Under the pieces are notes generated by a model. That model did not search any database, was not told where the DNA came from, and saw nothing but the letters and a program-made list of their open reading frames with translations. A program made the position numbers and the translations under genes. DNA of 59,620 bases from Deltaproteobacteria bacterium (GTDB lineage Bacteria > Myxococcota > Myxococcia > Myxococcales > 40CM-4-68-19). The DNA lies in the NCBI GenBank assembly GCA_005879535.1, contig VBKI01000059.1, forward strand, positions 13,555-73,174. Direction: 5' to 3'. Within the stretch, counting starts at the first letter, position 1. Every line of letters starts with the position of its first letter. Of this stretch, positions 980 to 36,344 are shown piece after piece.

Positions 980-2539
980 ATGGAAGTCCGTTGCGACAAA
1001 TGCCAGGCCCGCTACCGCGTCGACGACGCGCGGATCGGCCCGCAAGGCCTCAGCATGCGCTGCGGAAAGTGCCAGAACGTCTTCAGGGTAATGCCGCCGG
1101 GGGCAGCCGCGGCAGAGCCTCCGCAGAAACCTGTTCCGCCCGCGCCGAAGACGCTGCCCCGGCCGAACGCGACCGCAATTTTCGCTGCGCCTCCTCTTCC
1201 GAACAGCATTCCGTCCCCCGCGAAACCACCGCCACAGGCTGCCGGGGCCGGGAGGCCGCCTCGGTCGCCGGCCGCGCGGGTACCGCCCACATCCGAGGAG
1301 GCGGCGGGCCGGACCATGATGTTTCCGACGGCGAACCTGCCTTCGCAGCCGGCCGCCGCGAAGAAGGCGCCGGTTCCTTCCAAGCCAGCCGCCGGCGGGA
1401 CCATGGTGTTTGGCGAGTCGCCCGCGAAGTCGGTGCCTCCGCCAGTGCCCGCCCGAGGTCCAAAACCTGCCGCCAAGGCGGCAGACGCAGCGCGATCGAC
1501 GATGATGTTCGGTGCGCCGCAACCCAGGATCCAGGCAGCGCCTGCCGCGGCGGTGCCGACGCCGGAGCCGGCTGCGCTCGCGGAACCGCCTGCGTCGCCT
1601 GAACCTGCGCTGGAAGAGCCTTCAGCGATCGATGGCATGCCGCCGCCGCCTTCAGCCGGCGAGGCAGACGGCCCCGCCGCCGAAGCGCCTGCGGAGGCGC
1701 CGCCGGCAGCGGAAGGTGACGAGATCGCCGGAGAGCCGGGGCGCGAGGCTGGAACCTTCGACCGGGCGCCGCCGCGGGCCCTGCTCGTCGGCGTCGCGGC
1801 GGGTCTCGTGCTCCTCCTGGCCGTTGGCGGCGGACTCGTCGCATACCGCAAGCTCGGGCGCCGCGCTCCGCCGGCCGCGGCGGTCGAGACGCTCTCGGCG
1901 GCGCAGGCCGAGGCCGAGAAAGATTCGCTCGCGTCGATCGCCAGCGCCGAGACGAAGGCGCGCGATGCGCTCGACGTCGCCGGCCCCAGGGCGCGCTTTC
2001 CGGAAGCAACCGCGGCGCTGGCGCGCGTCGAGATCCAGTGGGCGGATGCCCTCGCCGATCAGGCGAGTCGCATCGCGGAGAAGAACGCGGACGATCCCCG
2101 CGCCGCCCAACTGCAGGCGCAGGCCAAGACCAAGGTGAAGGCCGCCTTCGATCTGCTCTCTCCAGCGGCCAAGGCCAACGCGGGCTCGCCCGACGTGCAA
2201 CTCGCGTTCGCCGACTACTACCGGGCGAAGCGGCTGCCCTCGAGCATGAGCAGGTACCTCAAGGAGGTGAAGGACGAGCCGCGGGTGGCGCTGATCGAGG
2301 GCCTTGCGCTCCTGCAGGAGGACGACGGCGCGGAGAAGGCGCTGCCGAAGCTGAAGGCGGCGCTGGCGGCGAGCCCGCAGAGCGCGCGGATCCATTACCG
2401 GCTCGCACTCGCCCACCTCGCGCTCAAGGACGAGGGCAGCGCGCGTACGGAGCTGAAGGAGACGCTACGACTCTCCCCGCAGCACGAGCGGGCCCAGGCC
2501 CTTCTGGAGCAGCTCGGCGGCGCAGCGGAGCGGAAGTAA
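980..2539 (+). CDS. MJ0042-type zinc-ribbon, single-pass membrane, TPR protein
   Basis: The 519-residue protein starts with an MJ0042-type zinc ribbon (Cys5, Cys8, Cys28, Cys31). A Pro/Ala-rich linker of about 230 residues follows. The linker carries four spaced copies of a T-[MA]-[MVI]-F motif at about residues 64, 110, 140 and 172. One membrane helix lies at about 268-291. The C-terminal part (about 310-519) is helical and has TPR-like repeats in its last 120 residues. A cytoplasmic ribbon and linker with periplasmic TPRs is the simplest topology. Zinc-ribbon N-termini of this type are common in myxobacteria, where some act as docking modules, for example in the gliding protein GltJ. The partner here is unknown. 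It lies upstream of a zf-TFIIB protein and gatCAB, possibly in one transcript. Confidence 0.8.
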   Translation: MEVRCDKCQARYRVDDARIGPQGLSMRCGKCQNVFRVMPPGAAAAEPPQKPVPPAPKTLPRPNATAIFAAPPLPNSIPSPAKPPPQAAGAGRPPRSPAARVPPTSEEAAGRTMMFPTANLPSQPAAAKKAPVPSKPAAGGTMVFGESPAKSVPPPVPARGPKPAAKAADAARSTMMFGAPQPRIQAAPAAAVPTPEPAALAEPPASPEPALEEPSAIDGMPPPPSAGEADGPAAEAPAEAPPAAEGDEIAGEPGREAGTFDRAPPRALLVGVAAGLVLLLAVGGGLVAYRKLGRRAPPAAAVETLSAAQAEAEKDSLASIASAETKARDALDVAGPRARFPEATAALARVEIQWADALADQASRIAEKNADDPRAAQLQAQAKTKVKAAFDLLSPAAKANAGSPDVQLAFADYYRAKRLPSSMSRYLKEVKDEPRVALIEGLALLQEDDGAEKALPKLKAALAASPQSARIHYRLALAHLALKDEGSARTELKETLRLSPQHERAQALLEQLGGAAERK

Positions 2540-2554
2540 TCAGAAGGACTGGAG

Positions 2555-2881
2555 ATGACCATCGAGAGGCCGAGCAACTTCGAGGACGAGTACTTCGCGC
2601 GCGAGAACGCCGAGCGCCTGCGCAAGCTGCACTACGAGGAGCAGAAGCGCCTGCGGCAGAGCGAGAAGGACGCGCTGCGCGCGCTCCACGCCGGGCGCTG
2701 CTCCCAGTGCGGGGCGCTGATGGTGCCCGAGGACGCCGGCGGCGTGCGCATCCTCCATTGCCCGGCCTGCGGAGGCGCGTTCCTCGACAAAGCGACGTGG
2801 CATTTCCTCCATGCGCATTCCGAGCCGCACCGGGTCATCGACGCCGTGCTCAACTGGTTCAAGTCGGCGAACAAGCCGTAG
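2555..2881 (+). CDS. Small zf-TFIIB zinc-ribbon protein
   Basis: The 108-residue protein has a charged, helix-forming N-terminus (residues 9-45). A zinc ribbon follows with Cys49, Cys52, Cys69 and Cys72; the second pair lies in a CPACGGAFLD motif typical of the zf-TFIIB family (PF13453). No enzyme domain is present. Family members are small proteins of unknown role. AGAAGGA precedes the ATG at a good distance. It lies 15 bp after the zinc-ribbon/TPR gene and 11 bp before gatC, so it is probably co-transcribed with both. Confidence 0.75.
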   Translation: MTIERPSNFEDEYFARENAERLRKLHYEEQKRLRQSEKDALRALHAGRCSQCGALMVPEDAGGVRILHCPACGGAFLDKATWHFLHAHSEPHRVIDAVLNWFKSANKP

Positions 2882-2892
2882 GGAGCAGCACC

Positions 2893-3186
2893 GTGGCCAT
2901 CGATCGCGCCCAGGTGAGGCACGTCGCCCGCCTGGCCCACCTGGCGTTGTCGCCGGAAGAGGAAGAGCGTTTCGCCGCGCAGCTCGCGCACGTGCTCGAG
3001 TACATCGAGCGGTTGCAGGCGGTGGACGTCAGCGGCGTCGAGCCCCTCGCCTTCGCCGGCGATGCGCAGGCCGGCGTCGTCATGCGGGCGGACGAGCCGC
3101 GCCCGTGCCTGCCTCGGGAGAAGGTGCTTTCGCAGTCGCCGCAGCATGACGGGCAGGCATTTCTCGTGCCGAGGATCATCGAGTGA
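2893..3186 (+). CDS. gatC: Aspartyl/glutamyl-tRNA(Asn/Gln) amidotransferase subunit C
   Basis: The 97-residue protein has the typical GatC N-terminus ([18 protein letters not shown]) and the central VSGVEPLAF block. GatC stabilises the GatA-GatB complex that converts mischarged Glu-tRNA(Gln) or Asp-tRNA(Asn) to the amidated form. GTG 2893 is chosen because GGGAG lies 8 nt upstream and it gives the family length. The stop overlaps the GTG of gatA, so translation is coupled. Confidence 0.93.
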
Positions 3187-4643
3187 AGATCGACCTCCTT
3201 CCGCTCTCGCAGATCTCCGACGCGCTCGCCTCCGGAGCGGTGTCGCCGGAAGCGCTGCTCGAGGCGTCGCTCGCCCGGATCCGCGCCGTCGACGGCCGGC
3301 TGCACGCGTTTCTTCGTCTGACCACCGACGAGGCGGGGGCCGCGGCGAAGGCCTCCGCGCAGCGCCGCTCGAGCCGCAAGCCGCTGGGTCCGCTGGACGG
3401 CGTTCCCCTCGCGCTCAAGGACATCTTCTGCATGGAGGGCGTCGAGACCACCTGCGGGTCCAGGATCCTCGAGGGCTATGTCCCTCCCTACGATGCGACG
3501 GTCGTCCGCAAGCTGAAGCAGGCCGGCGCGGTGATCGTCGGCAAGCTGAACATGGACGAGTTCGCGATGGGCTCCTCCACGGAGAACAGCGCCTTCGGTC
3601 CGACCATGAACCCGTGGGACCTGTCCCGAACGCCGGGCGGTTCCTCGGGTGGCAGCGCGGCCGCGGTTGCCGCGCGCCTGGTCGCCGGCGCGTTCGGCAC
3701 CGATACCGGCGGGTCCATCCGGCAGCCCGCGGCGCTCGTGGGGTGCGTCGGGATGAAGCCCACGTACGGGCGCGTCTCGCGGTTCGGCGTCATCGCGTTT
3801 GCCAGCTCGCTCGATCAGGTCGGGCCGTTTGCCCAGGACGTGCGCGGAGTGGCGTACCTGCTCGGCGCGGTGGCGGGCCACGACAACGACGACCAGACCT
3901 CTTCGCCGCGCCCGGTGCCGGACTACGCAGCCGGTCTCGACCGGGGCGTGCGCGGTCTGCGGATCGGCGTGCCGCGCGAGTATTTCGGCGAGGGCCTGGC
4001 ACCGGAGGTGGAGCGCGCGGTGCGCGCCGGTGTCGAGAAGCTGCGCAGCCTCGGGTGCGAGATCCGCGACATCTCGCTGCCGAATTCGCCGCATGCAATC
4101 GCCACCTATTACATCGTGGCGACGGCGGAAGCGTCGTCCAACCTCGCTCGCTACGATGGCGTGCGGTACGGTCACCGGGCCAAGGCCACCCAGCTCCTCG
4201 AGATGTACGAGAAGACGCGGGCCGAAGGATTCGGCGCGGAGGTGAAGCGCCGGATCATGCTGGGAACGTATGCGCTCAGCTCCGGGTACTACGACGCGTA
4301 TTATCTGCGGGCACAGAAGGTCCGGGCGCTGATCCGGCGCGATTTCGACCAGGCGTTCGCAACCGTCGACGCGGTGCTGTCGCCGACGAGCCCGACGACG
4401 GCGTTCAAGCTGGGCGAGAAGTTGGACGATCCCCTTGCGATGTACCTGAACGACGTCTACACGGTCCCGGCGAACCTGGCGGGGCTTCCGGGCATCTCCG
4501 TCCCCTGTGGTTTCGATTCGAGGAAACTGCCGATCGGCCTGCAGTTGATCGGCAGACCGTTCGACGAAGAGACTCTGCTCCGCATCGCCCGCGCCGCCGA
4601 GCCGTCCGACTGCCCGCTGCCGCCGGTGTTGGAGGGCCGCTGA
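3183..4643 (+). CDS. gatA: Aspartyl/glutamyl-tRNA amidotransferase subunit A
   Basis: This is an amidase-signature enzyme of 486 residues, the full family length. It releases ammonia from glutamine for tRNA-dependent Gln/Asn synthesis. The catalytic Ser-cisSer-Lys triad is visible at Lys79 (in ALKDIF), Ser154 (in GGSSGGS) and Ser178 (in DTGGSIR). GTG 3183 overlaps the gatC stop by 4 nt, and gatB follows after 1 nt. The gatCAB order implies one transcript. Confidence 0.97.
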
Positions 4644-27594: not shown

Positions 27595-28548
27595 TCAACG
27601 AGCGGGATCCGTCGGCGCGTTTCCTCTGCTGTCGAGGGCGGGCGCGAGGTCCTGGTTCTCCACGGGTCTGACCGACCCCTTCGTGGATTGCACGTCGATG
27701 GAGGCGAGCGCCCAGACGGCGCCAGGCGGATCGCCCGGACGGGATCCGTCGCGGTCGATCCAGGTCGCCTCCAGCTTCGCGTTCTTGCGCACCAGGTCGC
27801 GAAATGCCGCGTCGGGATCGTCGACGGTCTGCGCGAATTGATCGACGGTGAGACCGGAGCCGTTCTCCACCAGGAGCGTGTACGCCTGGACGTGCGCGCG
27901 CAGCGAGGCAGCGAGATTGTCGATCGCGTCTTCGCCCGCATACTTCTTCGCGTCATCCGCATGGTACGTGGGCCCGGAGTACCCGGTCGCGTACAGCTTC
28001 GCCTTCGCGACGGGAAGCCGATCGAGCCACGCTGGCCCGTTCCTTGCCGTCGTCGAGCCGCCGACCTGCGCCTCGGCGGCACTCTTTCCGCGCACGGAGT
28101 CGACCTCCAGGGTCGCCAGCGCCCAGACGCCGCCGGGCTCGCTGCGCTCGCCGTTCTCGTCGGTCCAGGTCGCCTCGATGCGAGAATTCTGCAGCACGAC
28201 GTCTGCAGCTTCCTTGCTGATGGTGGCGCCCTGGTTTGCGCTCGCGGTGGCCCGGTCCAGTCCCAACACCTCGACGTGCGAGGCGAGGGCAAGAGCGAGC
28301 TTGCCCCGCGCGTCATCCGCCGCAGCGTTGATGGCGTCCTGTGGCCAGAAGCTCGCCTGCGCGTACCCGACCGCGACCAGCTTGCCGTTGCCGCTCTCCG
28401 GAACCTTTTCCACCCACGGCGGAACGGCGACGCCTTCCTTCCACGGCTTGCCCCAGCGATTCAGCTTCGGAGACGGCTCGACGCGCTTCTGCGCACCCGC
28501 GCAGGCGGTGCAGGCAAGTACAGCCCCAAGCCATAGCCGCAAAGCCAC
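27595..28548 (-). CDS. Double LPP20-domain lipoprotein
   Basis: The 317-residue protein has a lipoprotein-like signal (Cys13 or Cys16). Two tandem copies of an LPP20-type unit follow. Copy 1 (about 56-155) runs from KLVAVGYAQASFWPQDAIN to GVWALATLEVDS. Copy 2 (about 185-290) runs from KLYATGYSGPTYHADDAKK to GAVWALASIDVQS. LPP20 proteins (PF02169) are outer-membrane lipoproteins, such as Helicobacter Lpp20 and flagellar FlgP. It is the last gene of a leftward four-gene set of LPP20/CsgG lipoproteins. The GTG 28548 start has only a weak ribosome-binding site. Confidence 0.75.
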   Translation of the reverse strand: MALRLWLGAVLACTACAGAQKRVEPSPKLNRWGKPWKEGVAVPPWVEKVPESGNGKLVAVGYAQASFWPQDAINAAADDARGKLALALASHVEVLGLDRATASANQGATISKEAADVVLQNSRIEATWTDENGERSEPGGVWALATLEVDSVRGKSAAEAQVGGSTTARNGPAWLDRLPVAKAKLYATGYSGPTYHADDAKKYAGEDAIDNLAASLRAHVQAYTLLVENGSGLTVDQFAQTVDDPDAAFRDLVRKNAKLEATWIDRDGSRPGDPPGAVWALASIDVQSTKGSVRPVENQDLAPALDSRGNAPTDPAR

Positions 28549-28565
28549 CCCAGAGACGGCAGCGG

Positions 28566-29135
28566 CTAGCGGACTCTCTTCGCTTCCTCGGCCGAAAGCT
28601 CGTCGAACGCCTTGTCGGCATTGGCGCGGACGGTGTCGCGCACCTTGGCATTCAGCTCCTTCATCTTGTCCATGTTGTTCTTGAAGGAGTCCATGTCCAG
28701 CGCAGCGAGAGCGTATTCGGTGCCGTCGGTATCCACCCAGTGATCGATGATCTGCACGCCGGAGAGCTCCATCTGCGAATAGGTCTTGAGGGCCTGCTGG
28801 ACGTGCTGCTCTTCCGTCGACTGGCTCATGTCGCCGGCCGTGGTCGACGCCATGTAGTCCTTGTTCAGCACCGAGACGTAGGTGTCGAGGATCTTCGAGA
28901 TCTCCGCCCGCCCCCGCGAGTCGGAGGTCGAGCGGCGCATGGCGGCGTTGCGGATTCCACTGGCGATGCCGACGCCATAGAAGACCTTGCCCTTGTCACC
29001 GCCGAACGCGCCCGTACCACGATTCACCCAGTCCGGGCCGTTGGCATGCAGCACCTGATTCGACATCTCCGGCGGCTTGCTGCCGCCGCACGCGGCGAGC
29101 GCCGCCACCATCGCGAACCCCAGAATCTTCTTCAC
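28566..29135 (-). CDS. LPP20-type lipoprotein
   Basis: The 189-residue protein starts VKKILGFAMVAALAACGGSK, with the lipobox Cys at residue 16. One LPP20 unit follows: KVFYGVGIASGIRNAAMRRS, a helix with SRGRAEISKILDTYVSVL, and ALAALDMDSFKNNM. GTG 29135 is chosen because GGAGG lies 7 nt upstream; a longer frame has no signal peptide. It belongs to the leftward lipoprotein set. Confidence 0.8.
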   Translation of the reverse strand: MKKILGFAMVAALAACGGSKPPEMSNQVLHANGPDWVNRGTGAFGGDKGKVFYGVGIASGIRNAAMRRSTSDSRGRAEISKILDTYVSVLNKDYMASTTAGDMSQSTEEQHVQQALKTYSQMELSGVQIIDHWVDTDGTEYALAALDMDSFKNNMDKMKELNAKVRDTVRANADKAFDELSAEEAKRVR

Positions 29136-29181
29136 TGTCGTTCCTCCATGTTTGCGGCGGCCTTGCCGACGCGCATCCGGT

Positions 29182-30261
29182 TCAGAGTCCCGCGTTCTCC
29201 TTCGCCACGAGCGCCGCCGCGAGATCGCTTCCCGCGCCGAGACCTGCCTCGCTCGCCGCTGCCTGCTGCGCCGCCTCTGGGGTCCGGCCCACCCCTTTGG
29301 CCTGCTTCTGCGTAGAGGCGACCACCGCCCCGCTCCGCGCATCCAAAGCCCGGACATCCAGAGCGGCGGTGGCGGCCACCTGAGCAAACACCCTGCCGCC
29401 CGGCGTGGTAGTCGCGTGGACCACGATCACCCACGGCATACCCTGCGCCTTTGCCTGAGCCAAAGCGGTATTTTCGCTGGCCTCGCCCTGCGTCTGGGCG
29501 GTGAAGCCTTGCCTGGAGAGGGCCTGCGTCACCGCTCCGGCTACCCAATCCGGCGCTACGACGATGGCCCTACGCGCCTTGCTCTGCGTCGCGTTCGCCG
29601 CGTCCTGCGCCTTCTGCAGCAGCGCGGCCGCGGTGGCGAGCTCGCGATCTCCGGTGGGGGTATTCCCGGCGACCTCCCTGGCCTTGGCCACGGCATCGCG
29701 GTAGCGGACGAGCGCGGCGATCACGTCGCCCTGCCTCTCCTGATCGCGTCCCTCGCGGTAGCGGGCCGCCGCGGCCGCAGCGGTTTGCTGGGCCTGCTGC
29801 GCCTGTCGCTGGCGCTCCTTGTCCACTTCGGCGCGAGGGAGCTTGAGGAGCACCCAGACGTCGTACCTGTCGACGGTCCCCGCACCCACCTCGCGCGAGA
29901 TCCTCTCGTAGTAGACGTCGGCCAGCTCGGCGGACCGGAGCATGGCATTGGCGCGGCTCCTCACCGTGTCCTTCGCCTTGTTTTCCGCCTCCTCGGTGCT
30001 CATGACGTCGTGGTGCTCGGCGCTGATCTCCACGCCGATGTACTGCGCCGCCTGGCTCCGCGCCGACTCGATCGCGCTCGCCTTGCCCTCTTCGAGCGAG
30101 GCCGCGCCCTCCTTCGCTCCCGAGAAGTACAGCGAATCCCCAGAGGCAGGAACCTTTGCGAGCCAGACCGGCGGCTTCGGCGAGGAGCTGGTCTTCACCG
30201 CCGGTTTCTCGCCTCCGCACGCGGCGGCGAGGACGGCGAGCGCAAGGACCCTACTGCGCAC
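29182..30261 (-). CDS. LPP20-like lipoprotein with CsgG-like C-terminal half
   Basis: The 359-residue protein has a lipoprotein signal (VLAAAC, Cys15). An LPP20-like unit fills about 30-150 (SLYFSGAKEGAASLEEGKAS to YDVWVLLKLPRAEVDKE). An Ala/Gln/Arg coiled helix lies at about 150-180 and a short TPR-like stretch near 185-230. The C-terminal half (AIVVAPDWVAGAVTQALSRQ, later GGRVFAQVAATAALDVRAL) looks like a periplasmic alpha/beta domain. GTG 30261 overlaps the end of the upstream CsgG-like gene by 11 nt, so the two are coupled. GGAGG precedes it. Confidence 0.7.
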   Translation of the reverse strand: MRSRVLALAVLAAACGGEKPAVKTSSSPKPPVWLAKVPASGDSLYFSGAKEGAASLEEGKASAIESARSQAAQYIGVEISAEHHDVMSTEEAENKAKDTVRSRANAMLRSAELADVYYERISREVGAGTVDRYDVWVLLKLPRAEVDKERQRQAQQAQQTAAAAAARYREGRDQERQGDVIAALVRYRDAVAKAREVAGNTPTGDRELATAAALLQKAQDAANATQSKARRAIVVAPDWVAGAVTQALSRQGFTAQTQGEASENTALAQAKAQGMPWVIVVHATTTPGGRVFAQVAATAALDVRALDARSGAVVASTQKQAKGVGRTPEAAQQAAASEAGLGAGSDLAAALVAKENAGL

Positions 30262-31231
30262 CGGTGGCCTCCGGCGCCGCGGTCTGCTCGGCGAGCTTCT
30301 TCGCGTCGGCCTGGAGCCGGTGGATGTTGTCGATCTCGCCGAGCATGTCCTTCTCGTTGGAGAGCGAGTAAGCCTTGTTCACCATCGCCTCGGCCTTGTC
30401 GTATTCGCCGGCGTACTCATAGGCGAGGCCCAGGTTCCAATAGCACTTCGCGACCTGTCCCGCCTTCAGCTTGACGTTCTTCTCCGCAATCTGCGCCGCG
30501 TCGTTGAACGTGCTCTGCGCCTTCTTCCAGTCGCCGCGCTCCGCCCAGCCGATGCCTCCCTCCAGCTGAGGGATGTCGGAGTCCTTCTGGAAGTTGGCGT
30601 ACATGAATTCCTGGTGCGGAACGATGGCCTTCATGAACCGCTCCACCACGGCGCGCCGCGCCGCGTTCTCGAGCGGCATGCGGTCGATGGGCTCGGGCCG
30701 GCGATCGAGTGCGCGGTTGGTGTCGTCGCGCCGCTCCTCGTAGGTCTTGGCGACGATCAGGCGACCCGTGGCCACGTCGACGATCTTGAACGTGGCGCGG
30801 ACGTATGACTCGCCCTTGAGCGAGTACCAGACGTGCCAGACCTTCTTGTCGTCCTGGTAGCGCGTCTCGTTGGGCTGCTCCCGGTAGCTGTTCTGCACGT
30901 CTCCGAAGATCAGCGCCCCGGCCGTCACCACCTTGCCGAGCTTCGCGGCCGCCCTCGGATCGGCCAGATCGGTGGAGGAGAGCTGCAGCTCGCGCATCAG
31001 TTGCGCGATGTGCTGCCGGTCGACCACGGTGAAGCGGTTCGTGTTGACCAGCGCCTCCTCGAGCGAATCCGTCATCGGCCGGTTGCCCACGCCCGTCATG
31101 TCCCCGACCGCGACGTTCTGGTACGGAGCCATGTTGATCTCCGCCGGCCTCATCACCGGAACGCGGACCGCGACGCTTCCACAGGCGCAAAGAAGCCCTG
31201 CACTGAGCAGGCCGAGAACGAGGTTCTTCAT
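30251..31231 (-). CDS. CsgG-family lipoprotein with TPR tail
   Basis: The 326-residue protein has a lipoprotein signal (CAC, Cys17). A CsgG/LpoB-like domain covers about 35-190: NVAVGDMTGVGNRPMTDSL, RFTVVDRQHIAQLMREL and GALIFGDV. TPR repeats follow at about 225-300 (KCYWNLGLAYEYAGEYDKAE). Family members form outer-membrane pores (CsgG) or activate cell-wall synthases (LpoB). It is the first gene of a four-gene leftward set, divergent from a second CsgG-family gene 160 bp away. Confidence 0.8.
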   Translation of the reverse strand: MKNLVLGLLSAGLLCACGSVAVRVPVMRPAEINMAPYQNVAVGDMTGVGNRPMTDSLEEALVNTNRFTVVDRQHIAQLMRELQLSSTDLADPRAAAKLGKVVTAGALIFGDVQNSYREQPNETRYQDDKKVWHVWYSLKGESYVRATFKIVDVATGRLIVAKTYEERRDDTNRALDRRPEPIDRMPLENAARRAVVERFMKAIVPHQEFMYANFQKDSDIPQLEGGIGWAERGDWKKAQSTFNDAAQIAEKNVKLKAGQVAKCYWNLGLAYEYAGEYDKAEAMVNKAYSLSNEKDMLGEIDNIHRLQADAKKLAEQTAAPEATGAQ

Positions 31232-31391
31232 CGTCGGTTTCCCCGAGGTACTAGAGCCAGTTGCGCGATCCGATGGCGTAGCACTCGCTTCCCGGTAGGG
31301 TCAAATTCCCGGTCGCAATTCTGGACGGTGGCCATCCGCGGCGATTAGCGTGTCCCCGGAACCGAAAAACCAGCCTTCCGCGGGACGGGTC

Positions 31392-32462
31392 ATGCGCAAT
31401 TTCCTTACCTTCGCGCTCTTCGCAGTGCCTGCTGTTGCCTTCGCGCAAGCGCAAGGCGCGCCGACGGTCGCCATCGCCGAGGTGACCGCGCGCGGCAACG
31501 CGGACGCCGACATGGCGTCGGAGGTGAACGACGCGCTCACCGACCAGCTCGTCTCGGACGGCCGGTTCCGGGTGGTCGAGCGGCAGCAGATCGCGAAGGT
31601 GATGAAGGAGCAGATGCTGGCGCAATCCGGCGTCATGAGCGACGAGGTGCAGATCAAGGTCGCCCAGCTCGTCGGCGCGCGGTTCATCGTGCTCGGGAGC
31701 GTGGGGACCAAGGGGCGCAGCTACGCGCTGTCGCTGCGGGCACTCGACTCCACCAGCGCGCAGGTGGCGTTCTCGGAGACGCTGAAGGTGGGCACGGAAG
31801 AACAGATCGAGGCTGGCTCGAAGCAGCTGGCGCGCAAGCTCGCGGACAAGCTGGTGGGGCCGTCCGCGGGCGGTTCGGCGCAGTCGGCGGCCTCGGCCGA
31901 GGTGCTCGGCGATTTCGACGCCGCCCAGGTGAAGGACGGAGCGCAGGCGGTGGCGCGCTCGCTGGCGTTGCGGTTTCCCAAGCTGACGGGAAGGATCGTG
32001 AACGCGCTGCCGAACGGAACCGCCTCCTGCTCCTTCGAATCCGGCGAGCCGTTCAAGGGCGAATTCTTCGAGGTGTCCGGCCGCGACGACGTGACCGAGC
32101 AGGACTCGCGCAAGGGATACTTCCTTCTCGGCAGCTGGTCACGGAACGGCTGCAGCGGCCGCGTCAAGCGCGAACCGGGCGGGATCATCGAGGACGGCGA
32201 TACCCTCACTTCCTTGCCCGTCAAGATCGGCGTCGAAGCGCTGCAGCCCGGTCCCGGAACGCCACCGGAGCTTGCATCGCTCGTGGCGACCGAGCTCCGC
32301 GCCGCCCTGGACTCGTTCCCGCAGTTCCAGATCGCCCCCGATCCCCAACTCACTGCCACGGGCCGCGTCTCCGGCCCTCGCGGCCGCCGCAGCATCGAGG
32401 TGCAGGTCATCGACAAGTCCGGCACCGTCATCCAGAAAGTGAATGTCCCCACCTCGTTCTGA
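31392..32462 (+). CDS. CsgG-family secreted protein
   Basis: The 356-residue protein starts with a Sec signal peptide (MRNFLTFALFAVPAVAFAQ) without lipobox. A CsgG-like domain follows at about 25-160: TVAIAEVTARGNADADMAS, RFRVVERQQIAKVMKEQML and ARFIVLGSVGTKG. The C-terminal 190 residues contain two Cys (in SCSFES and NGCSGR) and match no family I recognise. ATG 31392 is chosen for the signal peptide and GGGACGGG upstream. It diverges from the LPP20/CsgG lipoprotein operon and may share a 160-bp control region with it. Confidence 0.78.
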   Translation: MRNFLTFALFAVPAVAFAQAQGAPTVAIAEVTARGNADADMASEVNDALTDQLVSDGRFRVVERQQIAKVMKEQMLAQSGVMSDEVQIKVAQLVGARFIVLGSVGTKGRSYALSLRALDSTSAQVAFSETLKVGTEEQIEAGSKQLARKLADKLVGPSAGGSAQSAASAEVLGDFDAAQVKDGAQAVARSLALRFPKLTGRIVNALPNGTASCSFESGEPFKGEFFEVSGRDDVTEQDSRKGYFLLGSWSRNGCSGRVKREPGGIIEDGDTLTSLPVKIGVEALQPGPGTPPELASLVATELRAALDSFPQFQIAPDPQLTATGRVSGPRGRRSIEVQVIDKSGTVIQKVNVPTSF

Positions 32463-32669: not shown

Positions 32670-35600
32670 ATGACCATCATCCGGGATCATTCCTACCTCT
32701 TCGTGTGCCTCGCTGCCGCATGCGGCGGCGCTCTCGATTCCTCGCTCGTGGAGCGCGATCGCGCGCTCACGGCCGCGACCGCCGATTCTCCAGGGCAGGG
32801 AGAGATCGTCTGCAACAACAAGGTGGTCTTCTTCGGCCGCAGCGGCGCTCCGTCGGGCAGCGTCATCACCGCCGCTACGTTCGATTCCGGGATGGTACGA
32901 CGCACGTGCACGGCCACGGTGGCGAAGGATCAGACCTGGTCCTGCGCGCAGACGCTTGGGGATGGGGGCTACACCTGGACCGCGCAGGTGGCCGCGAGCG
33001 GTCCGGCCTCGCAGCAGGTCGACTTCGTCGTCAACACGCGCGGCTACCCCGCGCCGACGATCGATCACACGCCGTCGCCGAACAGCGATGCGAAGCCTAT
33101 CCTCACCGGCACCGTCAGCGCGTCGCTCACCAACAAGAGCTTCCATCTGGAGGTCACCGAGAACGGGAAAGCGATCTGCATCGTCTCGCCGATCAAATCG
33201 ACGAACTGGGCCTGCGCGCTCGCGGACAAGCTGGGCGATGGGCCGCACGTGCTGAGCGTGGACGTCGACTTCTCCAACGGCGACGAAGCCACTCCTTCGG
33301 GAAATGCGAACGCGTTCGTGGTGAAGACGTCGATTTCGAAACCGACGCTGGCTCCGGTGCCCACCCCGACCAGCAGGACCAGCATCCTCTTCTCCGGCAC
33401 CGGCGAACCTGCCGCGGTGGTGACGCTCGCCCAGAGCACTGGCGCGGGTGTCGCGGCGTCGCAGGGCAGCGCGGTGCTCTGCCAGAGCACCGTTTCCGCC
33501 GGAGGTGCGTGGTCGTGCATGCCGCCCTCGCCGCTCGGCGATGGTGCGCACACCGTCTCCGCCACGCAGCAGGACGCTGCGGGGAACGTCAGCGCCGCCG
33601 CCACCGCTTCGTTCGTCATCGACACGCACGTGCCGGCGGCGCCCACGCTGCAAGCGCCTGCGACGCCCACGGACAACCCCCGGATCACCTTCGCAGGCTC
33701 GGGCGAGGCGGGCGCGCGGGTGTCCGTCATCGACAGCTATTCGCGGCTGCTTTGCTCGGGGGCCGTGAGCGGAGCGGGAGCCTGGAGCTGCGCACCGGCG
33801 TCCGCCGTCGCCGACGGCGATTATCTGTTGACCGCGTTCCAGGTGACCCAGGTGGAAAACCGCAGCGGTCCCTCCGCGGCGGTGCCCCTCAGCGTGCGCA
33901 CGCTGAAGACGCCGGTGTTCGACGCTCCGTCGTCGCCGACGCGCGATGCCTCGCCGCTCCTCACCGGCCATGCCCAGTCGGGATCTCTCGTCTCCGTGTA
34001 CCTCGGCGAGACAGCGGTCTGTGACAGCAGCGCCGACGCGTCGGGATCCTGGAGCTGCAGGCCTGCGGCCCTCGCCGACGGCCCATACTTGCTGCAGGCG
34101 CGCGTCACCGACGCCCAGAGCCATGCCTCCGGACCGAGCGCCGCTCGCGCGCTGGTGGTCGACACGACCGCGCCGGCCGCGCCGGTCCTCGATCAGCCCG
34201 CTTCGCCCACTCGCAAGCGCGAGCCCGTGCTCAGCGGCACTGCGGAAGCCGGCTCCGCGGTGACGGTGACGGATGTGACGAGCGGCGGCGAGGTGTGCTC
34301 GGCGAACGCGACTGCCGCCGGAACCTTCCGCTGCGCGCCCTCGGCCACCCTGGCGCTCGGCGACCACCACGTGACGGCAAAGGCGGCCGACGCGGCGGGC
34401 AACCTCTCGCTGGCGGCAGAGGAAGTCGACTTCACAGTGTCCGACACGATGCCGCCTGCGCCGACCATCGAATCGCCCGCGAACGGCACCGTGCTCGACG
34501 AGCGACGGCCCGTGATCTCGGGACGCACCGCGCCGGGAACGCTGGTGGAGATCTCGGTCGACGGCCAGAGCTACGTGGCCCAGGTCACGCCGGGCGGCCT
34601 CTGGACGCTGCTGCCGGCCGCGGACCTGGCGGTGGGGAATCACGAGCTCCTCGCCTCCGCGACGGACCCCGAACAGAACGTAAGCGACACTGCGACGAGC
34701 CGGTTCTCGATCGCAGAGACGGGTTTTGCCCGTGGAGGGTGCAGCAGCGGCGGCATGCCCACGCCCGTGCTCGCGGTCGCGATGTTGCTCGCCTGGATGC
34801 GCAGGCGCCGTCGCGTGTCTCTCGCCTGCGCTCTCGCGATTACGGCCACGCCCCTGCTGGCGCGGGCGCAGGAGATCGACGTCTCCCTCTTCAGGCCCGC
34901 TTCCGGCGGCGATGGCTTCGCGGCCGTGGAGGGTGCGCGGCCGCCGTTGGCGGGCGAGCCGCGCCTCGAGCTGCGGACCTGGACGGACTACGCCGTGCAT
35001 CCGTTGACGTACGTCACCTCGTCGGGCGCGGAGCAGCCGCTGGTCCGGGGGCGGGCCATGGAGTGGCTCGGCGCGCAGGTCCATCTCGTCGGGTCCCTCT
35101 CGCTCTCCGCCCAGGTTCCAGTCACGGTCTCGAGCACCGGCAGCCTCTCGCAGCTCTCGTCCTCGTCGGGCGGTTCGTCCCAGCTGTCGTCCGGCTTCGC
35201 CGACTTGCGCTTGACTCCGCGGCTTGGCCTGCTGCGACAGGAGTGGGCGGGGATCGATCTCGCCGCGCAGATGTCGTTCGAGCTGCCCACGGCGCACGCG
35301 CAGAGCTACTCCGGTGACGGCCGGGTCCGGGTGGAAGGCCTGGTCGCCGCAGGGCGAAGGCTCGCCGCGGTGCCGGCCGGCGATCTCGATCTGCTCGCCA
35401 ACGCATACGTGCGCGTGCGGCCGGCGCGGGAGTTCCTCGATGTGAAGTCCGGCAGCGAGGCGGGTCTGCGGGCAGGCGTCGGGTACGGGATCGCCGCGGC
35501 ACGCGCGTGGATCCCTCGACGTCTCTATGTCGAGCTGGAGGGGCGGTCCTTCCTCCGTGCGGGATTCGCGCCGGGCTCCGCGCCTGCCGAGTGGCGCGTC

Positions 35601-36344
35601 GGCGGCACCCTCTGTCCCGTCGGACACCTCGCCGTCGACGTCGCGGGCGGCGGCGCGTTGACCGACGGCGTCGGAGCGCCGCGCGCGCGGTTCCTCCTCG
35701 GATTCGGATTCTCTCCCACGGCGTGCGCGCGGACCTATCCGACCGCGCAGCCTTTGATGGCCGCCGCGCCGGCGCCCGCTCCCGCGCCGCGTCCGCGCAC
35801 CGTCGCGGAAGCTCTGCCGCTGCCTCCGAAGCCCGCGGTCGTCGACAGCGACGGCGACGGGATTCCCGACGCCGAAGACAACTGTCCGGATCAGCCGGGT
35901 ACCGTCGAGAACCACGGCTGTCCCCAGGGCATCCCCCAGCGCGTGGTCGTCTCGGCCACCACCCTCGAGATCCTCGATCAGGTGCACTTCGCAACCGGCG
36001 AGGCGCGCATCCAGAAGCAGTCGTACTGGCTGCTCGACCAGGTGGCCGCCGTCCTCAGGACGCACCCGGACCTGCTCCTGGTCCAGGTCGAGGGGCACAC
36101 CGACGACCGCGGAGCTTCCTCGTTCAACATCCTGCTCTCGCACGCGCGAGCCACGGCGGTCGCCGACTACCTCGTCTCCAGGGGTGTCGACCGCGAGCGG
36201 CTCGTCGCGCGTGGGTTCGGTCCGACGCGTCCCGTGGGCAGCAATGCCACTGCGGAAGGTCGGGCGGCAAACCGCCGTGTCGCCTTCACGGTGGTGAAGA
36301 CGCGCGCGCGGGTGATCGAGGCCGAGCGGCCCCCGGACTCCTGA
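32670..36344 (+). CDS. Ig-repeat protein with internal MYXO-CTERM-like tail fused to an OmpA-family protein
   Basis: The 1224-residue frame has no interruption. A lipoprotein-like signal (Cys20) is followed by seven Ig-like repeats of about 90 residues (about 40-680), the first six with a Cys pair. At 689-715 comes GGCSSGG, a hydrophobic helix and five Arg, which is the shape of a MYXO-CTERM sorting tail (Cys691). Directly after, VSLACALAITATPLLARAQ (716-734) is a second signal peptide. It leads to a beta-barrel-like region, a Pro-rich linker, a thrombospondin-3 calcium repeat (DSDGDGIPDAEDNCPD, about 1062) and an OmpA peptidoglycan-binding domain (VEGHTDDRGASS to GRAANRRVAF). GTG 34815 could start the second half separately (509 residues). 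GGAG precedes ATG 32670. Confidence 0.8.
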   Translation: MTIIRDHSYLFVCLAAACGGALDSSLVERDRALTAATADSPGQGEIVCNNKVVFFGRSGAPSGSVITAATFDSGMVRRTCTATVAKDQTWSCAQTLGDGGYTWTAQVAASGPASQQVDFVVNTRGYPAPTIDHTPSPNSDAKPILTGTVSASLTNKSFHLEVTENGKAICIVSPIKSTNWACALADKLGDGPHVLSVDVDFSNGDEATPSGNANAFVVKTSISKPTLAPVPTPTSRTSILFSGTGEPAAVVTLAQSTGAGVAASQGSAVLCQSTVSAGGAWSCMPPSPLGDGAHTVSATQQDAAGNVSAAATASFVIDTHVPAAPTLQAPATPTDNPRITFAGSGEAGARVSVIDSYSRLLCSGAVSGAGAWSCAPASAVADGDYLLTAFQVTQVENRSGPSAAVPLSVRTLKTPVFDAPSSPTRDASPLLTGHAQSGSLVSVYLGETAVCDSSADASGSWSCRPAALADGPYLLQARVTDAQSHASGPSAARALVVDTTAPAAPVLDQPASPTRKREPVLSGTAEAGSAVTVTDVTSGGEVCSANATAAGTFRCAPSATLALGDHHVTAKAADAAGNLSLAAEEVDFTVSDTMPPAPTIESPANGTVLDERRPVISGRTAPGTLVEISVDGQSYVAQVTPGGLWTLLPAADLAVGNHELLASATDPEQNVSDTATSRFSIAETGFARGGCSSGGMPTPVLAVAMLLAWMRRRRRVSLACALAITATPLLARAQEIDVSLFRPASGGDGFAAVEGARPPLAGEPRLELRTWTDYAVHPLTYVTSSGAEQPLVRGRAMEWLGAQVHLVGSLSLSAQVPVTVSSTGSLSQLSSSSGGSSQLSSGFADLRLTPRLGLLRQEWAGIDLAAQMSFELPTAHAQSYSGDGRVRVEGLVAAGRRLAAVPAGDLDLLANAYVRVRPAREFLDVKSGSEAGLRAGVGYGIAAARAWIPRRLYVELEGRSFLRAGFAPGSAPAEWRVGGTLCPVGHLAVDVAGGGALTDGVGAPRARFLLGFGFSPTACARTYPTAQPLMAAAPAPAPAPRPRTVAEALPLPPKPAVVDSDGDGIPDAEDNCPDQPGTVENHGCPQGIPQRVVVSATTLEILDQVHFATGEARIQKQSYWLLDQVAAVLRTHPDLLLVQVEGHTDDRGASSFNILLSHARATAVADYLVSRGVDRERLVARGFGPTRPVGSNATAEGRAANRRVAFTVVKTRARVIEAERPPDS

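Follow-up and report, generated by a model that had tools for sequence, protein, structure and literature searches.

RESULTS

A single frame in a soil myxobacterium carries two export modules

The window, the whole stretch of 59,620 nucleotides analyzed here, comes from a soil myxobacterium and holds a fused adhesin/outer membrane (OM)-anchor gene whose neighbors are a CsgG-like gene and ychF. Translation runs stop-free from ATG 32670, preceded at ~7 bases by a GGAG-type ribosome site, to the stop codon at 36342-36344 (Table 1). Read by eye, the first signal ends LFVCLAAAC before GG (MTIIRDHSYLFVCLAAAC followed by GG) and looks lipoprotein-like, with Cys18 as the putative lipid site. The same-genus relative L048 has an identical first signal and L047 the canonical LVLAGC, and a lipobox is also found in many other fused relatives. 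The Ig region that follows scored 180.6 bits with Big_13 and also matched Big_6 in Pfam. Upstream, at positions 27595-32462 and adjoining the fused gene, small lipoprotein-like genes cluster with a CsgG/LpoB-like gene (31350-32462); L048 and L051 preserve the order of two members of this cluster.

Table 1. Features of the fused gene, in window coordinates
Feature	Residues	Positions	Strand	Evidence
Whole open frame; predicted precursor of two exported parts	1224 + stop	32670..36344	+	Translation, Pfam
First signal, lipoprotein-like, MTIIRDHSYLFVCLAAAC; putative lipid at Cys18		32670..32723	+	By eye; relatives L048, L047
Seven Ig-like repeats; presumed adhesin/stalk	~44-683	32799..34718	+	Big_13, Big_6; Ca_tandemer NF033510; borders by eye
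Internal MYXO-CTERM tail: GGC (Cys691), helix, RRRRR	689-715	34734..34814	+	TIGR03382, TIGR03901; 44 fused relatives
Second signal, n-region formed by the Arg block; ARA (733/734) as predicted signal peptidase I site	711-733	34800..34868	+	
12-strand beta-barrel	~766-1014	34965..35711	+	AlphaFold2; Foldseek matches FapF, COG4313 channel 4rl8
One thrombospondin type 3 (TSP3) calcium repeat, below Pfam cut-off	1059-1076	35844..35897	+	Pfam
OmpA domain; presumed peptidoglycan binding	1107-1202	35988..36275	+	Pfam 71.1 bits; Foldseek TM 0.83 to 5wtp

Residues 686-733 of the window protein read FARGGCSSGGMPTPVLAVAMLLAWMRRRRRVSLACALAITATPLLARA. Both MYXO-CTERM models place the first part of this stretch above their curated cut-offs, at 25.3 bits for TIGR03382 (cut-off 15.85) and 21.0 bits for TIGR03901 (cut-off 20), and the tail was above the cut-off in the whole-genome search too (20.3 bits). 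A defining feature of MYXO-CTERM is its position at the C-terminus, which the window tail lacks: 509 residues lie downstream. The tail ends in an Arg block at residues 711-715, followed at once by GTG 34815 (residue 716).

For the second half, an AlphaFold2 model built on 20 relatives (mean pLDDT 80.7) has its 12 long strands within model residues 51-299, with the OmpA domain last; the barrel starts no more than ~30 residues past the second signal. The top Foldseek matches were OmpA peptidoglycan-binding domains, among them 5wtp, an OmpA C-terminal domain, and the barrel matched the OM channels FapF and the COG4313 channel. Foldseek thus returned only generic barrels and OmpA domains, with no functional lead. 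By sequence, the best named relative of the barrel half is TraB of outer membrane exchange, and the region after the second signal scored 70.9 bits against the N-terminal part of the TraB model. A single-protein scan of our collection gave mostly unrelated OmpA domains, the only close matches being L156 and L157, which are on the same contigs as L047 and L048, from Deltaproteobacteria MAGs. In three same-genus genomes, an APC-like permease gene immediately precedes a stand-alone barrel-OmpA relative of the contig C91 type (L010, L053, L054).

Most of this layout had been read from the letters of the DNA in an earlier note, and it stands: one uninterrupted 1224-residue frame with no stop between the halves; Cys691, Arg711-715 and GTG 34815 at residue 716; a MYXO-CTERM-like tail inside the protein, now found above two curated cut-offs; seven Ig-like repeats, readable by eye and detected by Pfam as Big_13 and Big_6; and a second signal followed by a barrel (12 strands in the AlphaFold2 model), a calcium repeat (sub-threshold TSP3) and an OmpA domain (Pfam). 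The first signal described there is present as well, and it looks like a lipoprotein signal rather than a plain one.

The fusion is found across the phylum

We identified relatives of the window gene with a C-terminal query. The near relatives, all of the same genus or family (L048, L047, L049, L018, L050, L052), are fused at the same junction, and none is split. The closest are L048, of the same genus, at 75% over the matched stretch, and L047 at 62%; both keep the frame and the pattern. In L051 (G005:C146, 5940-6696), also of the same genus, the syntenic place, with the CsgG-like gene on one side and ychF on the other, holds only a barrel remnant of ~155 residues; either the gene was lost from G005, and is dispensable there, or the assembly is broken.

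In the wider phylum, the eight-barrel profile had matches in 158 of 195 Myxococcota genomes. Some 80 barrel loci were fetched, chosen to cover families and long frames, so that the sample gives no frequency. Among the barrel frames with 200 or more residues open upstream, 48 in all, 44 were fusions, all with Cys-helix-Arg before the second signal; the other four (L055, L082, L115, L120) have no such module and were judged to be chance read-through of a high-G+C frame, a call made from composition and position on which the 44/48 count partly depends. The 44 fusions represent seven families and at least 19 genera; collapsing them at 90% barrel identity leaves 36, and at 70% it leaves 27.

The window genome is a draft of 118 contigs, and the fused frame could in principle reflect a sequencing or assembly error, or a stop lost recently in this organism alone. 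We consider this scarcely credible: fused relatives occur in three genera of the window's own family and in six other families, and fused genes are present in the single-contig genomes G038, G084, G103, G107, G131 and G145. With near relatives and single-contig genomes fused, both forms of the explanation were rejected. The same evidence contradicts the hidden sequencing error at the junction that the earlier note had allowed for, and its further caveat, that orthologues might always be separate genes, fails because no near relative with a complete junction is split. The note had left two readings of the frame, a polyprotein or a lost stop. The recent lost stop finds no support, the near relatives with a complete junction all being fused; the polyprotein is supported as far as sequence goes, since there are numerous old fusions, both the tail and the second signal have been retained, and the second half mostly lacks a start of its own (below).

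A plain operon fusion would be a different matter. Here, a stop would have been lost long ago, the two parts would be processed as they were from separate genes, and the fusion would have no special role. Split forms of this kind exist among distant relatives: in L069, L073, L077 and L118, a separate gene with an Arg-ended MYXO-CTERM tail stops 35-95 bases before the barrel signal. In addition, about 10 changes between fused and not-fused states are needed on the barrel tree, at least three of them forced by well-supported branches, on a quick tree from which the direction of these changes is not derivable. The four-base overlap of the two genes traA and traB (PMC3325183) also fits. Against this, the fused state persists in deep clades, being found in 31 of the 32 rows of one large clade of the barrel tree. 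Such a fusion without a role is possible and, to our minds, somewhat doubtful. Selection for the linkage is the only point on which it differs from the double-export model proposed below, and the two are compatible.

The junction is constrained and the ectodomain is not

A strict rule for the Cys-helix-Arg-second-helix module was matched by 41 of the 44 fused junctions, and the remaining three show the module by eye. The same rule had no match in 66,362 residues of upstream parts and matched 8 of 4400 shuffled junctions. An AxA cleavage pattern is present at the second signal in 42 of the 44. Between the two helices lies a loop with a median of 5 Arg/Lys; the 44 loops combined contain no more than 7 Asp/Glu, a composition that fits a cytoplasmic loop, as expected for the predicted topology. 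Of the 27 tail codons, 12 encode a different residue in L048 than in the window, as do 12 of the 20 signal codons, counts too small for a selection test; despite these changes, L048 retains the Cys, the helix, the positive block and the ARAQ-type site.

The ectodomains of the fused genes vary: Ig, DUF11 with InlB-type, TSP3, Big_12, cysteine-rich repeats and AgmC_N are all represented. The comparison shows a junction apparently under constraint across the fused genes while the ectodomains differ freely. Judged from these loci, the fusion class is widespread in Myxococcota, old and junction-constrained, which is an addition to the published case of MXAN_5598.

The second half has mostly lost its own start signals

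Alternatively, an internal start codon could be an additional or even the main source of the second half. The window does contain ATG 34797 and GTG 34815 near the second signal. We found no ribosome site before either codon, and neither is conserved in L047 or L048. Across the loci, a start codon with a ribosome site of at least 5 bases is present at 1 of 44 fused junctions versus 9 of 33 stand-alone barrels, by a crude rule that many stand-alone genes fail as well; an ATG is present at the start region of 22 of 44 versus 28 of 33. The junction stretches searched in L050, L105 and L107 hold no ATG, GTG or TTG at all.

Most fusions having no internal start with a ribosome site, the second half would normally be translated together with the first, and its independent production is probably not general. 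Internal initiation was rejected as the main route on the 1/44 count, and we rate it as very improbable even in a supplementary role. By these counts the start signals of the second half are decayed in the fused genes, and this loss of internal starts is a new addition. The decay also speaks against the plain operon fusion.

A proposed model of double export and two cuts

The window's own genome encodes a GspD (563.9 bits) and an MrtX-like protein; the latter has both motifs, EExxxR (EEFFYR) and HxxxN (HFLCN), and scored 139.8 bits against the NF040593 cut-off of 180. Eight further genomes from the genus or family, several of them incomplete, were searched for MrtX; five gave no match, including G006, which carries a fused gene. 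The own genome has 13 MYXO-CTERM candidates, eight of them above the cut-off; an internal location is known for two, the window gene and a paralogue on contig C36. Cleavage of terminal MYXO-CTERM by MrtX is experimental (PMC11980579). In E. coli, MrtX alone was enough in the case of TraA.

The frame, its domains, their conservation, the lack of internal starts and the presence of the MrtX-like gene and GspD in the genome are directly established. We propose, with a probability of roughly three in four, that a twice-exported precursor is split by a myxosortase and a signal peptidase into a lipid-anchored adhesin and an OmpA-type barrel. Led by the first signal, the Ig part would be exported via Sec. 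In the one topology model considered, the MYXO-CTERM helix would halt in the inner membrane (IM) with Arg711-715 in the cytoplasm, where the block would double as the n-region of the second signal, and export of the barrel-OmpA part would resume. An MrtX-like myxosortase would cut just past Cys691, as judged from terminal tags, leaving the Ig part lipid-anchored and bound for the surface, presumably via the type II secretion system. Signal peptidase I, predicted to cut after residue 733, would free the barrel-OmpA part for OM insertion and peptidoglycan binding. One ribosome pass would deliver a TraA-like adhesin and its putative partner, a TraB-like anchor, in a 1:1 ratio. We infer both cuts, the lipid and the final locations of the window products from published work on terminal tags.

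Lipoprotein-like first signals were observed in the window gene (32670-32723) and in L047, L088, L090, L092, L095, L103, L107, L109, L112, L113, L121 and L009; other fused precursors have a plain first signal. Because many fused precursors start with a lipoprotein-like signal, the adhesin part of these may carry lipid at both ends.

The chain might instead stay uncut at the MYXO-CTERM tail, or wholly uncut, with the helices forming an IM hairpin or staying on one part, so that the product is one long protein. In cells lacking mrtX, a little uncut MYXO-CTERM protein can still arrive at the surface (PMC11980579), which would allow this. The ~30 residues between second signal and barrel, however, seem too few to cross the periplasm from an IM hairpin, so the signal peptidase cut, at least, seems needed. 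Moreover, retention of Cys, helix and Arg in 44 of 44 fusions would be unexplained if the tail were never used. We regard an uncut product as improbable.

Beyond the window, the double-export model suggests a general one-gene design in Myxococcota, a proposal on which we stand evenly divided. In it, exchangeable adhesins would be combined with a conserved cassette made up of the sorting tail, the shared Arg loop, the second signal, the 12-strand barrel and OmpA, with double export, two proteases and 1:1 delivery. The design would have arisen or been undone several times, and TraA-TraB would be its split form.

Comparison with known systems

The arrangement of the window gene, and the idea of its processing, is already published for MXAN_5598 of M. 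xanthus, in which an adhesin part and an internal MYXO-CTERM are followed by a barrel and OmpA (PMC11980579). Its layout was called atypical and internal motifs rare; it was considered a possible two-gene fusion and likened to TraA plus TraB, with the N-terminal part proposed to be processed, and the gene lies beside ftsA and ftsZ (PMC11980579). The protein was also listed as an OmpA protein in OM vesicles (PMC4158809). The window protein has the same parts in the same order in one frame.

Ten of the fused loci adjoin ftsZ (L057, L065, L089, L091, L110, L111, L114, L116, L122, L125). Since the published gene is placed beside ftsA/ftsZ, these are very likely relatives of MXAN_5598. All four tested (L089, L110, L111, L114) exceed the NCBIfam cut-off for the N-terminal domain of the gliding protein AgmC; a literature search for AgmC found nothing. 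The window gene differs from MXAN_5598 and the ftsZ-adjacent fusions in length (1224 residues versus open frames of ~2300-3200), in its lipoprotein-like first signal, in having a barrel from a separate clade and in its location away from ftsZ, and no AgmC_N (NF047640) was found in it. An arrangement that had been termed atypical for a single species is common among Myxococcota, with a constrained junction.

The paralogue in the same genome (L009, contig C36) likewise has an internal MYXO-CTERM-like tail, a second signal, a barrel and OmpA. It differs in its 2650-residue frame, in a cysteine-rich ectodomain, in a tail slightly under the cut-off (19.0-19.9 bits) and in a barrel that groups with the Cys-rich fusions of other families. 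A more distant parallel is Bradyrhizobium fbcH, in which cytochromes b and c1 come from a single chain that is cleaved at a signal peptide inside it. Both are bacterial precursors with an internal cleavable signal, predicted in the case of the window. The fbcH products are inner-membrane respiratory proteins, with neither a sorting tag nor outer-membrane parts. The fused gene offers a testable bacterial precursor with two back-to-back export signals. Sorting tags are sought at protein ends, and proteins with internal tags can therefore be missed or annotated only as OmpA.

At first inspection, the window protein resembles TraA-TraB, with a MYXO-CTERM surface part and then a barrel, TSP3 and OmpA. 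The whole protein scored 165.4 bits against the TraB model NF033763, far under the cut-off of 700, versus 950-1027 bits for true TraB in relatives; in other genomes, true TraB genes stand alone, with frames of 581-665 residues. The domain search found no PA14 domain and no TraA cysteine repeats, and only Ig-like domains in the first part. With the TraB cut-off missed and PA14 absent, straight membership in TraA-TraB was rejected. The fused genes offer many natural adhesin-anchor pairs in which the generality of TraA-TraB style pairing can be tested.
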